Shown here: one piece after another, positions 1-42,300 of the stretch
Layout: every line of letters starts with the position of its first letter
How positions within the stretch are numbered: position 1 is the first letter of the stretch
NCBI RefSeq assembly: GCF_021134715.1
Contig: NC_060026.1
Span: 14,747,001-14,811,000, forward strand
Source: Daphnia pulex
Taxonomy: Eukaryota; Arthropoda; Branchiopoda; Diplostraca; Daphniidae
Length of the DNA stretch: 64,000 nt
Reading direction: 5' to 3'
The notes under the pieces: generated by a model
Database searches by the model: none
What the model was told of the DNA's origin: nothing
The model's input: only the letters and a program-made list of their open reading frames with translations
Position numbers and translations under genes: made by a program

Positions 1-3000
1 GAGAGTAAGTTTATGAACTTGGGGTTGTATATTAGTCCGTTCGGTTCCTCTTGTGTGTGGGGGGAGTAACTTAATCCTACAGGAGACTATCAAATGTTGT
101 TGGCTGCGTCCATCCTTCATTCCCCCCACCACCACCATGATGGTCGCCGTCCTCTTCAAAAAGAAGAAGAAAAACAAATAAATAACTTATACCTCCCGTG
201 AAGAGTCATCATCGTGAGCTCCTCCATTTTCTTCTTTAGAATTTGATGATGTCAGTCGTGCGATATACTAGTTCTCTTAAATAACAAAATGTTTCGAGAC
301 ACATGATTGAATGACTCATCCACGACCTTCTTCTTCTACTTTTTAAAATGGCGTAGGGGGGAAAGAAATTCCAACAATTTCAATTGCGGTTTCACCGACA
401 CACACCATTTTTGGGGATATTTTGAATTTGGCGCCGCTGGTTAGGTAATACATATCATTCAAAAATGGAATGATTCATGGGAATTTGATACGGGTCACCT
501 TAATGGAATCACCACGTCACACGCCCACAGATAATGAGAGACGTGTGGGTTGGACGTGATTCGATAGTCAATAATTTTTGAATGCATTTAAATTTGTTCA
601 TCACTATATATATCTAGTGACCGGAAAATAAGCGCCAAATAATCATTCAAATGACATGCATACGAAATGAGCTCTGGGGCTTTGTCGCACGGGCGCAGCA
701 GCTGTTTCGTGACCAACTTTGGAATTTGATTTGATCATTTCCAGAAAATGAAAGAACATTTTTTGGCGGTCAGTTTCGAAAACGCCCTTAAGGTGTTACT
801 CTTCTATTTTATGTGGATGATCTAATTAAACCCCCTCACAAACACACACATTGTTGTGGATATTTTGATGGCCAGATATATGTTTATAACTTTTCCAACT
901 AACCCCCTACAGGTTTTTATTTTAAACTCAAATATTTTTTCTTTTTCTTGGAATTAACTTTTCAGTTTCATCTCGGGAATGTGTCCAACATCATTTACAA
1001 TCTGCCGTTTGATTGTTTTTACACGCTGCACCGGACACACCAACTTCCAACTTTTTTATTTTCCCCCAACTTGAATAACAACAATTTGAGGTTTGATTGG
1101 ATTCAATGAAGTGTGTTGTTTTTATTTTTAAAATTTTTATTTTAAAATAAAAACAAAAAACTCGTTTCTTTACGTATAGGAATCGAATGAGTCGTCGTCT
1201 GGAATGAGATCATCGAGATCTTAAATTACTTGGTGTGTGGTTTTGGATCAAGTTCATTACCGACTTTATTTTTATTTATTTTATTTAAAAAAAAAATATT
1301 TTTCTTTCTTTAACCAGAAAAAGGGAAAAAAATTAAAAGTCGTTTGTTTACAACCCAAAGGCATTTGCTGGAAAGGACCAAGATGGCGTCTGGTGGTGGC
1401 ATTTTAACAACAGTTGGTCCATCTCTCATCGTCTGGTGGAAGGTCGGCCCCTAGCTTTTAAATCAAATAAACACACTTTGCACACACACACACACACAGA
1501 CAATATATATACAGACACCCCCGTCTAGCAGCAGCAGCCGTGTGTCAAGGATATTTCCTTCTAGGAAATGAACAAACAAAAGGAATTCGACCTCAAATGA
1601 CCTTGTTTTTCTTTTAATTTCCCAGGGTCATTAACCCTCTGGGGCGTGACGGAAGTTTGAAAAATGATTTACACTCTTCCAGATTTAAATGGCGGAAATC
1701 CCCCCCATCAGAAAAAAGTTTGCGATTAGAAATTTGGCCCCCCCTTCTATAAGAGTCACCCCCTGGGCGGATACATATTCTCTCTGGAGGATTTTTAACA
1801 CATGTAGACATAGAAACTATACAAGATAAAAAAACAATTTGCAATGGTGGTGGTGGCTGATGGTGAGTTAATTCTTGTAAGACATTCCACCGCCTTTTGT
1901 CAAAAATTTTTTTAGCCAGTCGGCGAAAATGAATAACCGGTTGTTTTTGTCTTTTTTATCTGAAAAGAATTTTCTCTTTTACAGTGATAACTTTCATTCA
2001 TGAAAAAGAAAGAAAAATGTTTGTTTTACTACTACGCAGTCAAAAAGTCCTTGATGGCTTTTTGGCGTGGGTCGTCTGCGCAGTAGACACTCCCCGGCGG
2101 ACTGTTGAGATGTGACGTGAATGACCAAATGATCTAACGTACACAAGTCGGTCCCAAAGAGGACCGACACATTCTGTCGGGAGAGAGAGAGAGAGTGACC
2201 ATAGCCAAAATTTGAAATTCTCTCTACTTACCCAATAGGTCAAGGATCGCAGACGAAAGAAAATCGCTCCTTATTAATTCCCTCTACATTTTGGAGCCCT
2301 TTATTTATTACGGTATTCTAATTGATTTCCCCCCGGAATTTTTGTGGAGGAATTTTGTTTGGGGGTATGCCGAGAATAGACTGGACAGACTAGACACAGG
2401 CCACTTGAAACGTGATTTCTACACAAGTTGGTCTTCTTCCTTTTTGAAATCTAAACATGTGTGTGTGTGTTCTTGGCCGAATTGCCAACGAGGTCGTCGC
2501 CGAATTCCTTAGATTATCTGCCCCGATTTTTACAAAATTAAACATTTGAATATTCAACGTACTACGAGCTTTGGGCGACACAAGGGAATCCGAACGAACG
2601 AACGTGAAATACGAACCCATCAAAAGGGGGGGGCCTAATCAAATTCTTTTTTTCATACGGAAAAAAATAAATTTGTTTCCTCTACTGGGTCACGTTTGAT
2701 GAGGTTTTCACGCCCCTTATATCTCCCATCCTATTATGTAGAACGTCCGGCTGTCTATACTGACAAACGAAAAACATTTTCAAAAAATTGAATTTTTAAA
2801 TTTAATCGAATTTTTTTTTCGTTTTTCCTCCCCAAATCTTTTGAAAAGAAATCTCAAGGTCGTGACTCTTTTATTTTATTGTTACGATTCCTCCGAGCTC
2901 CAACAACTTTTTGTTTCGATTAAAAAAGAAAAAATACCGCGGGGCTAACGTCTTTTTTTGATTATTTAAAAAAACCTTTTCGTTTTATTTCCCCTTTTTT

Positions 3001-5656
3001 CTTCGAAAGGGAAAAAATCACACGTGTATGGCCGACATCATTTGATTACCAAAAAAACACATTTTTATTATTTCCCCAATGTGTTCTGCTGCTCTACATT
3101 TTTTGAAAAGAAACCCCTCTAACCCACAAATAAAAAAAGGGTCGGTTGTTATGGCAACCCCTATACACACTGGTTTGGACAATGGGTTAAAGCCAAAAAT
3201 GGCTTCTGTGTCTCTTCAGCAGAGCAGACATTGTATTTCTTCACCCTGTCAAAAGACAAGGGGAGTAAAATTCAATGGTAAAAAGATGGTTGCTCAAGCA
3301 TTTGTGAAACAAATCAAAAATGATGGTCGTGTCTCTTTTGGAAATTCTTGTGTCGTGTCGTCTCTCGGGAGCTCGCAGGGTCACGCTGACAATTTTTTGT
3401 TGTTTTTTCTTGGTGTGACTCACCAAATAGAATTTAAAAAACAAAATTTAAAACAAAAAAGGTTTTCTTCGAAAATGGGTAGAAAGTTTCGAAATTGTGG
3501 AGGGGAGAAAAAAGCCCGCGGAGATACAACGTTGCCACCCGCGCGCCATTTTAAATAAAAATCCGAGTGGTGTGGTGTGGGGGTTAGATTGTGTCAGTGG
3601 GGCGGAGTCGAAAAAGGCGGGACCCAATGAGAAGCTTTGAATATCCCCTCCTCCCCCCACAAGTTGGGAAAAAGGGCGCGCAAAACGAGGGGGGGGAGTA
3701 AGAAAAAACTAGAAAAAGTTGTAGCGGCCGACCCTTTTGGTTGGTGAACTTACCAGTCGATTCCTTCAGAAGCGTCTCTTCAGTCGAAGCGTCCTAACGT
3801 GTTTGCACTTGACTCTCCGTGTTTTCTCTACATTTGAATTTCTCCGCTCTCAAAGGTTTGAATTTTTTATTCTTTTCTAGTTTGTCTGTTAAGTTGGGAA
3901 TGTTTGGAGGTTAAACCAGTCAGCGGGGGTCTGTCGTTACACATCATTTTCTTCTCCAGTGAAATTGGATGCCATTTGAAAAACGACTAGTCTTGTAAAA
4001 AGATTCATCTTCTTCTTGGTAACAAAACCATAAAGGAGCTAGACAGCTGTAAAGCGGAGACCCCCTCACTCCCCTCCCAATTTTATTGTAAGACATCTTT
4101 TCTTTGGACTCCCCTTTACGAAACCAGTCCACCTTGACAACATTTTTCCTAACATTTATTTTCAGTTCAAAAGAAGCCACCACCTCGTGTTTGATGGCCC
4201 GTTTTTACTGAGAAAAACGACGCTTTTGATAACGATTAACACTTGTGGAAAAATAATAATTTTACCCCCAAATAGGCAAGGAACTAGATAAGATAGGGTG
4301 GGTTTTAAAATTGTTAACGGTTTTTTGGGGGGCAAGTTTGAATTTTTAAGGGCCTTTTATTTTTTTCCCTTTGAAAAGAGATACACACACAATAACCCCT
4401 CCTTGACCAGTTTCTCCCCCCCTCCTATTTTTACCTTCTTGTAAAATTTAATCCTCTAGCACAGGTTTTATTCTTTCGGTTATCCGATGGCTTCAAAGTT
4501 GAAAAAAGAGGAGGGTCGTCAATTCGTTCAGGTTTCAGAATTTAAAAAAAAAATTTCTACTTTTGTTTGGTGGGGGGGATAAATGGTTGCATTCGGTTGG
4601 CTTGACCTCTTTGATCCCTTCCATTATAATTCCGTGTGTATATCGGCGACAATGTCTGCCAACTCGGGTTTTTATCTAGCCGATGAACAATAGAATTGCG
4701 AGAGTGGAAATGTGGCCATTAGATGAAGAAGAAGCTAATGGGTTGGCACGATCCTTGTAAGGAAACCCATCAAGTTTTTGTGTGTGGCAACTATCCACCT
4801 GCGCCATTCCACCCCTGTTTATTCTACATTGAATGCGTCATAATCCTAAATGTAATAAAGCTTAACGGGGGGAGAGAAATGTTTAAGTCACCGTGACTCG
4901 TGGCAGATGCACGTCAAAGTTTCTATCTAGGCATATGCTATTATTTTTTGATAATAGATCATAATGAAGCGATGAAGCCAGGTGTGTTTCCTGTTTTGTA
5001 ACCCACCCACTTGTATATATTCCGCCACAATTTCTGCTGCCGTCATCATGGCAACTAAAATAAAAAGGTGTGCGTGCGCGTCTGTTTTTATATTTTTTCG
5101 GGACCGTAACAGTTGGCGTCAAGTTAGCAATGACCAGGAACACTGGAGTAGAGAGGAAGGAAATGTAGGTGGAGGAATAGACATGGCGGAAGTGAATCGA
5201 AACCCCCCCTACAGCTCTTTTGTTAACTCATTAGCTATACTGTTGTCTGTAGATCGCTAGTCGCTGTGGCAACCCCCAGTTGTTGTTTTTTTAAAAAAAT
5301 GTCTATAAATAAATGAAGCCCCAAAATTATCCAACCCCAAGGGGTCGAATCCCAATCTACATTTTTTCGTTCACAGCGAGCAGCCCCCATTGATTGTAGT
5401 TAGTCGCTGACCCTTTTTTTTCTAAATAAAAATAATAATGTCGGCCAATTTTTAGTTGTTTGTGGTGGGAATATTTTCGTTCCGGATTCGAAACTCTGTC
5501 GCGTCACAAAGGAAAAATAGCCGCTTTTATATTTTTTAACGAACAAGTGTGGGAAAAGCTGTCGATGTACATCAAAAGTTAATTTTAATTTCTTACCTAA
5601 TTTCCTAACGTTATTAAATTTTTATTTTCCAGTCAAATTCCGTTGAATAAAATAAA
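1..5656. other. Non-coding upstream region, no gene recognised
   Basis: I find no open frame with family resemblance on either strand. The stretch is AT-rich with many homopolymer runs, a short CA run near 1481-1497 and a short GA run near 2180-2195. A GC-richer segment around 3720-3860, ending in CAAAG followed by GTTTGA, could be a 5' untranslated exon of the caveolin gene, because that gene's first coding exon is preceded by a good pyrimidine-rich AG acceptor just before 5635. That link is inference only. Confidence 0.5.
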
Positions 5657-7350
5657 ATGGCTGAAACCAAATCCACTTCCCGCGCTGGCTCCAAGTTGAA
5701 CTTGAACGAATCGACGATGCCGTTGTTGGACGACGAGGCTCACGAAAAGGCCGAGACTCCCGAGAAGGACGTCATCGAGATGAAGGAAAAGGCGTCGACC
5801 ACGTCGGAAGGTGAAAAGGACGATTCCAATCCCGAAAAGATTGTAAGTTTTTGGCTTTAAATTAACTATTACAAGTAATTCATTTAACTCAAATTTTATT
5901 CAAATTTCAGGAGGAAGAGAAGAAGGATGGCGATGAGGAGGGTGGCGACAAGAAGAAGAAGAAGAAGGAAAAGAAAGAAAAGAAGGAGAAAAAGGAGAAG
6001 AAGGAAAAGACGGCCAGTTGCCACCGCAGGACGCAGAGCTGCGTCCAGACTTTCACCGTCGGTTTGAACGTTCTCGACCGTGACGAGAAGCACATCAACG
6101 ACACCATCAACGTAAGACACACAGTTGGAATGTGTTTAGCTCTTCTTCTTCTTCTTTAGACCTCCGACCTTTCTCTCTCTTTGTGTATATTAAACTCCCC
6201 TAGAGAGGGGGGAAGGAGAAGAGCGGCCGTGCAGTCTAGCGAGCATAAACATCTGCTCATCGTTAATACGAACCAGATCACTTCCCAACTTTTTTTTTCT
6301 CGTCATGGCGAATGTGGAATGTGATAAGTTGAGAGCCAGACGCCCGGCGTCTATTTATTAAGTAAAATATGAATTTTTAAAAAAAGTTTAGGCCACCTAT
6401 CGGTTTCATAGAGAAGCTTTTTTAAGTGGTGGAAAAAAATAAGTTCTTGACCGGAATGACCGAATTTCCTGTTTCTTTTTTCACCAAAAGAAGGAAAAGA
6501 AACTTCACCACAGATAGACAATTGAAGGGGGGGGGAATGGTTTCCCGTATCTCCACCCTCTAATTCCCGACTGTATACACGCCCTTGTCTTCCTCCTCTA
6601 CACGCACCGAAAAGATATCATAAAATAAAAGACAGAAGGTTTCTCGCGTGATGCTTTACCACACTATTGCGTTAGTAACGAGGGCGACAACAATACGCCA
6701 GAGGTCTACTACTCCGGCGACGTTAGGCTAGTCAGAGGGGGGAGAAAAAATGGTCGTTAAAAGCTCATTGCAGTCCCCCTAGAATCACATCAGGGGATGA
6801 TTATTGACATCGTGCTGATGGAAGAGAGATATATAGTCATCATCATCATCATCTGTTACTACTTTCCATTCTTTTTTGAAGAGAGTAAATCACGATTTTT
6901 CTGTTTTTTTTTTACAGTTGAACTTTGAAGATGTTTTGGCTGAACCGGATGTGGCCCATGGATTCGATCCTATCTGGCGCGCTGCTTTCATCCTCTTTAC
7001 CGGCTCGCGTTTCTGGATTTACCGTCTGCTGTCGGCAATTCTAGCTCTGCCATTGGCCCTCGTTTGGGGTATTACCTTCTCGCTCATCACCTTCTTCTCC
7101 GTCTGGTTGGCCACGCCCCTTCTCCGCATCATGGACGTCTTCCTCTTCTACATCCGAAGGGTAAAAACAAAATTGAACATGTTTAATTTGTAAACAGCAT
7201 CTAATTATTTATTTATTTACATGTTGTGATGATTGACAGGTCTGGGTCGCTTTGGTGCAGACAACATTGGAACCAGTAGCCAACGCTGTCGGCGGATGCT
7301 TTTCCAACGTCAAACTGACGCACAACAACAACCAACTGCAAACGGTTTAA
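5657..7350 (+). CDS. Caveolin
   Basis: Four coding exons: 5657-5842, 5911-6111, 6918-7160 and 7240-7350, all joined in frame with GT-AG introns, giving 246 residues. Exon 3 opens with FEDVLAEP, the caveolin signature (FEDVIAEP in vertebrates), preceded by DRDEKHIND, also conserved. The scaffolding-domain-like stretch and the intramembrane hairpin follow (FWIYRLLSAILALPLALVWG and more), and exon 4 ends with the conserved LEPVANAVGGCFSNVK region, whose Cys is a plausible palmitoylation site. Caveolins insert as a hairpin into the inner plasma-membrane leaflet, bind cholesterol and shape caveolae. The N-terminal half is unusual: it is longer than in vertebrate caveolins (about 150-180 residues in total) and carries an acidic stretch followed by a long Lys/Glu tract in exon 2 (about residues 63-96). 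The start is the first ATG after the acceptor-like site. The paralogue type (1, 2 or 3) cannot be assigned. Confidence 0.95.
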
Positions 7351-39325: not shown

Positions 39326-42300
39326 TCAAAGGGACGCCGCAATTTCCTCCTCCAACATGAAACCCGTGAAATGGGTAAAGTGGGAACTGCTGTCAGACAA
39401 ATACGAGGACAAATACGAACCAGAATAAGTAAACTGCACCCAGACTCGATCGCCTTTTTTCAAGTTCAGCGTCGACTGGAGGGTCATCGGACTCCATTGA
39501 TCAACGGGGCCGTTTCTCTCTTCAACATGACTCGACCCGATTCGATTTCCGTTCAAAAAAAGATCAGAATAAAACCAAGCAAAAGATGAAGATGTGAGAT
39601 GCGCCACTCCCGCGAAAGAGAAAGAATACATTCCCGGTCGCGGTGCCGTGAATATCCCCGATGTCAAATCCATGGCGTTTCCCTCGTTCACTACCGCCAA
39701 ATCGAACAGAATCGGAGTGAATGTTTCGTTAAATGAAGAATTTCTCGTGACGTGGAAATGGACGGGCGCTGATTTGACGTCGGAGTATCCGATCCATTTC
39801 TGTTGGTCTGTAAACAAAAGAATTAGACAAACAATAACAAGTAAAAGTAAAATAATTCCTACCATTTTGATTGGCATTAAAATTGCAGTAAATCATTTCC
39901 ATCTTCTTCGCTCCTTTGACAGAAAAGAATCCGCTCAGTTTATGTCCCGTCCGCTGTAGATCCGCACACGATGTTGGCATTTTACCAATGTCAACTATTT
40001 CACTCGTTCGGGCTGTTAAAAACAATTTGATTTACAATTTACTTAATTTGATTTACAATTTAATTCATCATTATATTGTAAACAAACTTTAAGTTTATCA
40101 TTTACCATTTAATTTTGTTGTCAAATCGGCAATGACCGCATTTGTCCTCGATGTTGTTGAGGCCAAATTTGTTGTTGTGGTTTCCAAAAGATTTAAGGTT
40201 GCTGAATCATTCATTCGGTTACATTATAAGAAACTTTTCATTTTTATTTAACAAGCGATCCACGATTCAAGTAGACCGAAATCATGGAGGGGCTTTCCAG
40301 ATCTAAATCCGGAAAAGGCCTTAAAAATATAAAAAAAATATAGGGATGTTTGTCTTCGCACGCCGGATTTACCTGCGTTTGCAGAATTACAAAATTCCCA
40401 CCCGTTTAGGAGTTATTTAGCTCTAAAGTTTGGGTTTTTTGAATTTTGTCAGAAAGTGGGGGGGCTTTGACATCCATTTTCGGATAAGCGGGGGAGCTAG
40501 GGAAAAAACTAATTTTTTAAAAAGGTTTATTGCATACTCAACCACCGAAATCCAAAAGGAATTTCCTTTCCGGATTTTATTGGTTGAGATATGACTGATT
40601 TAGTGAAAGGATAATTTAGCTGGTTTCCCTCCCTGGCTTGCAGCCATTTTTTCGTACAGTCCGCTGCGCTCCTGGTGGAAGCCAGAAGAAGGTCTTATAC
40701 ATCGGCCAATAAGAAATCTGGGTTCACTATATATGAAGGCCTGTATAAATGCAATGGGTCTAATGTGAAGGCCGATATATAAGACCTTCTGCTGGCTTCC
40801 ACCAGGAGCGCAGCGGACTGTACGAAAAAATGGCTGCAAGCCAGGGAGGGAAACCAGCTAAATTATCCTTTCACTAAATCAGTCATATCTCAACCAATAA
40901 AATCCGGAAAGGAAATTCCTTTTGGATTTCGGTGGTTGAGTATGCAATAAACCTTTTTAAAAAATTAGTTTTTTCCCTAGCTCCCCCGCTTATCCGAAAA
41001 TGGATGTCAAAGCCCCCCCACTTTCTGACAAAATTCAAAAAACCCAAACTTTAGAGCTAAATAACTCCTAAACGGGTGGGAATTTTGTAATTCTGCAAAC
41101 GCAGGTAAATCCGGCGTGCGAAGACAAACATCCCTATATTTTTTTTATATTTTTAAGGCCTTTTCCGGATTTAGATCTGGAAAGCCCCTCCATGATTTCG
41201 GTCTACTTGAATCGTGGATCGCTTGTTAAATATAAAGATATTACCGCCCAGTTCTTTTCTCAGATTGTCTTCGGTATCTTTTAGTTCATTCAACCGTTGC
41301 GAATTTGCTACTTATTTACAGAAACAAAATTACTAAAATTTAAAAATAGCTTAAATTCAAAATAATGTCATTTTACCGTTTAATTTTCTCGCCTGATCAT
41401 CGACGGTGGATTTCGTTTGACTCAATTCGATCCTAGTTGAGGTCAATAATGTTTTGGTGGCATCCAACTCTTTTTGGGTAATTTCCAACTTTTGTTGTAC
41501 CACTGGAAAATTCATATTAGACTTTAGTCGTAATTTGATTTCATGTTAGCGATTTAGAAATTAATTAAATTAATTAATTAGAAGATGCTAAATTTAATTT
41601 TGGTTATCACACAAAATAAGTCCCGCTGTGTAATGTAAAAAAAAACTCGTGCAAGAAAAAGAAAGAATTTCTTTCACAATAATTTGAAATTACCTGCGAG
41701 ATTTTCTTCAGTGACTTTAATTTTATCTGAAAACATCTGTGAAATTGCTGCAAATTCCTTTTTAGTTTCTGAAATTCACAAAATATTTTGTTTGTAATTT
41801 TTTTTAATATGTAAAACCTTTTAGTTACAAAAATTAATATGCAATTTCAACTTCTACAGCTTAATTAATTAATTTTTCTGAATATTACCTTCCCTAATGG
41901 CGATTAGCTCTTTCGCAAAATTGACTTCGACATTTTTCATTGTTTCTAAAAATATTTTTATGTAAATTTTTTATGTTAGGGCCATTTCATTCGCGAATAG
42001 AATTGTGATATGTTTCCGAATGAATCCATTTTAAATACCTTTGTTGTCTTGTGCTTGCAATTTATTTTCTTCAGATATAACCCCATCATCATTGACACAA
42101 ACATCTAGAAATTCAAAAATTAAATTAAACTTTTTTTTTGTTTATCCAATTTAAAAAAATTCAGCGCACCGTCGTTCAATTTACGATCAAATTCAAGTTG
42201 CAAATGTTCAAATTGCTTAGGAAATTCGAGCATTTGAGTCTTCACTCGACCGCAATCTTTCCGTGTCGGGCAGATCAAGGTAAACCTGAGTGACGGCTGA

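Follow-up and report, generated by a model that had tools for sequence, protein, structure and literature searches.

Among DNA transposons, piggyBac and Kolobok elements duplicate TTAA, and Sola3 may use TTAA as well. In the available parts of the sources, piggyBac elements have a CC[C/T]T end motif and terminal repeats of 12-19 bp (PMC2872659), Kolobok elements have 5'-RR...YY-3' ends (PMC9587614), and no Sola end rule is stated (PMC5199201). Pokey, a piggyBac element, and its MITEs mPok1/2 are known from Daphnia pulex, again according to partial text. In the same species, the accessible text of Schaack et al. 2010 (PMC2884549) reports two unclassified TTAA-flanked families, TTAANA1.1 and TTAANA2.1, which had 130 and 40 BLASTN copies and were not confirmed as piggyBac. 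Very long terminal repeats have been found in Galileo, a Foldback-like element of the P-superfamily in Drosophila (PMC4168063, available portion). No foldback element of Daphnia was described in those titles and beginnings of abstracts that a literature search listed, and the word foldback is absent from the available part of PMC2884549.

We analysed a stretch of 64,000 nucleotides of Daphnia pulex contig NC_060026.1 (the window). A non-autonomous foldback (long-TIR, MITE-like) DNA transposon occupies positions 40248-41229. Its 974-bp body lies between two TTAAs, the target-site duplications at 40248..40251 and 41226..41229. The left arm, which is a terminal inverted repeat of 456 nt (40252..40707, plus strand), starts with CAAGCGATCC; it is followed by a loop of 62 nt (40708..40769, plus strand) and by the right arm of 456 nt (40770..41225, minus strand), which finishes with GGATCGCTTG. 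The preliminary description had claimed near-perfectly complementary arms of about 460 bp around a loop of about 60 bases, with TTAA outside both ends, and the measurements agree with all of this. The complementary stretches (40241-40707 and 40770-41236) are 467 nt each, 99% complementary and 62 nt apart; 456 of the 467 nt are inside the TTAAs, and the remainder consists of the TTAA, which is self-complementary, and a few AT bases. Counted inward from the TTAA, which is included, the first 460 positions of the two sides of the element mismatch at just two places, 40686 and 40700. Arms of such length are not chance. The longest ORF inside the element has 85 aa from stop to stop, indicating that it has no coding capacity. 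No Rfam match at the gathering score was found over 39900-41600, and a scan of the element for bacterial-type promoters and terminators gave numbers similar to those from shuffled sequences (0 against a mean of 1.7, and 2 against 1.4, respectively).

To be a transposon of this kind, the element should not be alone in the genome, and a single-copy locus with no empty site in relatives had been named beforehand as an outcome that would speak against it. The search with the element covered 133,188,837 bases in 13 contigs and gave 94 match rows. At least 22 full-length copies of 952-990 bp were found, including the window copy; this number is a lower bound because 40 of the 196 candidates were scored. 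The list of ends, which gives positions only, contained four further end pairs 950-952 bp apart. The end TTAACAAGCGATCC occurs 62 times in forward and 53 times in reverse orientation (100 of these 115 places were listed), whereas the reversed pattern used as a control occurs 1 and 0 times. TTAA was present at the left end of all 22 full-length copies and at the right end of 21 of them. One copy (L018) is without its final 9 positions. The two arms are 95.7-99.8% identical within each of the 22 copies. One full-length copy (L009, C2:10300431-10302735) sits in a tandem repeat with a period of about 176 bp, as judged by alignment offsets, and about 200 bp past its right end there is a further piece of the family with 74% similarity.

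The comparison with empty sites was run on paralogous sites in the same genome, and precise empty sites were found. In two paralogous C1q genes on the same contig (L063, 96% over the query, and L064, 81%), the intron that hosts the element is uninterrupted and has a single TTAA at the insertion place. Both paralogues also lack 2 nt that are present beside the insertion place in the window. A third aligned relative (L065) gave no alignment over the host intron. Moreover, another repeat carries L004 in one of its copies and L019 in a second, at positions about 25 bp apart, and each of them therefore displays the site of the other without an insertion, and the site of L009 was seen empty in the neighboring unit of its tandem repeat. 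Since the empty sites carry one TTAA, TTAA is the duplicated target. These empty sites show that the element has been mobile. The multi-copy family and the empty sites thus uphold the earlier suggestion of a non-autonomous DNA transposon, here with TTAA as its target duplication, and the single-copy locus named as an outcome against it did not turn up.

This genome also has a larger element that shares these ends. It came from 20 stretches that were examined, 19 of them beside ends with no partner at the usual distance and one between ends 6.5 kb apart. This element (L042, C3:270551-277027, locus 552-7028) is 6,477 bp long and has TTAACAAGCGATCC at both ends. Its two terminal repeats of 446 bp show 100% identity, and compared with the arms in the window their identity is about 96%; the loop sequence of the short element adjoins one of these repeats. 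On the minus strand of the large element we built a gene model of 1,123 stop-free codons with two predicted introns (62 and 73 nt) and the first Met at residue 35. The predicted protein has a Cys-rich start and contains the motifs LLDYKMK at 536, SDNASCYQ at 629, and HTETQDGKSVLDAHF at 660, which by eye we read as a putative DDD/E triad. A DNA search for the gene located a single intact copy besides two decayed copies that contain stops (L067/L068, C12:5129155-5131238; L069/L070, C9:5299780-5300645). No convincing element ends were seen around the decayed copies in the stretches examined. The best-kept parts of both include the acidic motifs, with changes. Over residues 512-689, the intact gene and the C12 gene differ at 14, 15, and 38 of 173 first, second, and third codon positions, respectively, as expected of a protein-coding gene.

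Library searches yielded no usable name for the product of this gene. Pfam had no match for four ORFs of the large element or for a 194-aa core piece. Against PDB sequences, one search found nothing and another found a single match with an E value of 0.72. The one NCBIfam match (E 0.0087) reached 15.4 bits, compared with a cut-off of 250; the three PHROGs matches were weak and to entries of unknown function (E 0.058-0.43), and IMG/VR contigs and plasmids gave none. As none of these libraries recognizes the gene as a transposase, this role rests on the position of the gene within matching ends and on the acidic motifs read by eye. With its shared ends, identical repeats, loop sequence and stop-free gene model, the 6.5-kb element is the likely autonomous partner of the short one.

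Could the short element instead be a piggyBac-type MITE that is mobilized by Pokey or by a different piggyBac element in this genome? The TTAA duplication and the presence of Pokey and mPok1/2 in this host, as recorded in partial text, agree with it. Pfam includes a piggyBac model, but the ORFs of the matching 6.5-kb element had no Pfam match and a piggyBac-type transposase was thus not found. Furthermore, the element has CAAG ends and not CC[C/T]T, and its repeats are 456 bp (446 bp in the large element) and not 12-19 bp, which differs from the piggyBac rule in the available text of PMC2872659; Pokey itself was compared by description only. We therefore consider a piggyBac-type MITE very unlikely. 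A Kolobok identity also agrees with the TTAA duplication, but the element ends in CA...TG, while Kolobok ends are RR...YY (PMC9587614, available part). A Kolobok protein would have a C/DxxH motif between the second D and the last E; in the gene model this motif is found once after the second acidic motif, as DWPH at residue 752, it is not kept in the aligned L067, and the last catalytic residue is putative. Kolobok is a highly improbable identity. The element follows neither end rule, and both identities were rejected.

Two other comparisons concern long repeats and earlier annotation. Similar to the present family, Galileo has very long terminal repeats and its copies range from nearly complete ones with a transposase segment to a single repeat, but it duplicates 7-8 bp (PMC4168063, available portion), whereas the present element duplicates TTAA and the ORFs of its partner have no Pfam match. 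TTAANA1.1 and TTAANA2.1 resemble the family in being TTAA-flanked and multi-copy, although the comparison is by description only, and both are marked with ORFs longer than 100 aa in the accessible text of PMC2884549, compared with 85 aa in the element. The family may be one of these two.

Among the matches of the genome search, 16 partial copies were examined, not counting both ends of the 6.5-kb element and the 74% similar piece beside L009. In 8 of the 16 (L025, L026, L027, L028, L030, L031, L033, and L034), the match to the element breaks off where the second arm starts, from 7 nt ahead of that point to 24 nt beyond it. One end of L021 is short of 318 bp, L024 lacks an inner piece, and L041 is rearranged. 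L038 is without the loop, with one side of the gap at the loop edge, and L040 stops about 20 nt short of the end of its arm. Three copies (L035, L036, and L039) follow the short element into the loop, leave it there, and run on into the coding element's other subterminal stretch. Breaks within the first arm are under-counted because the search favors long matches. The break points were compared in 23 loci in all; 11 of these are older, and their match stops short of the second arm by 17-353 nt, in many cases just because of divergence. A break near the tip of the hairpin, whether from nuclease cutting or from gap repair that failed, would account for the eight copies; it is also possible that one-armed copies are mis-assemblies.

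We also asked whether the one-armed copies are the ends of long coding elements, and, short loci aside, this was rejected. Beyond the loop, those that were compared have nothing in common with the coding-element ends L032 and L037, except for L035, L036, and L039, and tblastn with the predicted protein against the loci collected by then, 19 stretches of 8-10 kb beside other ends among them, found only the 6.5-kb element. For short loci, with less than about 900 bp beyond the arm, being the end of a long coding element is possible. One of the partial copies, L025 (C10:8948393-8949298, locus 401-1306), is a chimera with TTAA on both sides, in which an arm and loop of this family are joined to an arm of about 365 bp from a second family. 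The second-family arm is 91% identical to L047 and has the same first bases as the present family.

The arm comparison used 20 full copies and excluded L022 and L023, because their loop was not recognized. Mean divergence between the arms is 1.57% within a copy; between copies it is 4.8% for arms of the same side and 5.3% for arms of opposite sides. When left and right arms were paired at random, none of 10,000 shuffles was as low as observed (shuffle mean 5.1%). There were 117 variable columns, of which 47 had at least one copy altered on both arms; in 36 of the 47 there was no one-sided cell. Private changes on both arms numbered 14, in 8 of the 20 copies, and private changes on one arm numbered 70. 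This pattern fits copying between the arms. Unsampled sister copies, or several founders that each arose from a fresh foldback, could also account for the likeness of the arms. The arm nearest or tied nearest to a given arm was the other arm of the same copy in only 14 of 40 cases, which counts against continuous arm-to-arm copying.

The element is located in an intron of a C1q gene on the minus strand, about 15 bases from an exon, as had been described. The gene has an ORF with a C1q domain (39329..39892, Pfam PF00386, E 1.1e-16), a downstream coiled-coil exon (40106..40201), the host intron (40202..41244, GT...AG, phase 1), and an upstream coiled-coil exon (41245..41307); the boundaries of intron and exons were placed from the sequence, by GT/AG and the reading frame for the upstream exon. 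The predicted splice sites are GT at 41244-41243 and AG at 40203-40202, and the two coiled-coil exons stay in one reading frame across the phase 1 intron. With the insert the intron has 1,043 nt, and without it 65 nt. A distance of 15 nt separates the 5' splice site from the outer edge of the nearer TTAA. Folding predicted the RNA of the whole intron as one long hairpin of -888 kcal/mol, a value given with no shuffled control at this length. Because the base of the hairpin is near both splice sites, folding would restore nearly the old distance between them and leave the intron near its original length. In the next C1q intron (window 40024-40065) there is a direct duplication of 21 nt, 95% alike, that is missing from the paralogue L063. 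Places that match the C1q coiled-coil exons form a dispersed local gene family on C10; 13 of 14, counting the one in the window, are within about 2.8 Mb (C10:12.26-15.08 Mb).

The hairpin might be functional in the C1q gene, as a source of siRNA, an editing substrate, or a splicing control, and be kept by selection. Its strong predicted fold within the intron and the short distance to the 5' splice site are in favor of such a role, but two paralogous genes manage without the element and 21 other full-length copies sit elsewhere, so we give selection for a function only a very slight chance. Effects through siRNA or editing may still possibly occur in this gene, but most likely the element has no role there and is a passenger that the gene tolerates. 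Palindromes are hard to assemble and one-armed copies could be mis-joins, but an assembly artefact at the window locus has a negligible probability, since there are 22 full-length copies with flanks alike only for L004 and L019, copy-specific changes are found on both arms, the loci examined contain no N, and the paralogues are empty.

Taken as a whole, we are confident that the best explanation is a non-autonomous foldback transposon that depends on the transposase of its 6.5-kb relative and is tolerated as a passenger in the C1q gene. A transposase from this relative (C3:270551-277027, or lost sister copies) would recognize the CAAGCGATCC ends and excise the short element, which would then be inserted at a TTAA. 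We infer that the gene of the large element encodes this putative transposase, and that the short element probably arose from an element of the 6.5-kb type by internal deletion, in which both terminal repeats and about 60 nt beside one of them would have been kept. A broader proposal combines a partner from a TTAA-specific DDD/E lineage outside piggyBac and Kolobok, copying from arm to arm, loss of a whole arm at a break no more than about 25 nt from the hairpin tip, and folding out that spares splicing in short introns; that all of these hold jointly seems rather unlikely.

This is a clean and recent case: a single genome contains the family together with its likely autonomous partner, the host gene, paralogues of that gene that lack the insertion, and several empty sites. 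The system would allow testing whether long palindromes in very short introns are tolerated by folding out. If confirmed by reads, the one-armed copies are a natural record of the genomic breakage of long hairpins. Furthermore, the partner protein may close a gap in how TTAA-targeting transposons are classified.
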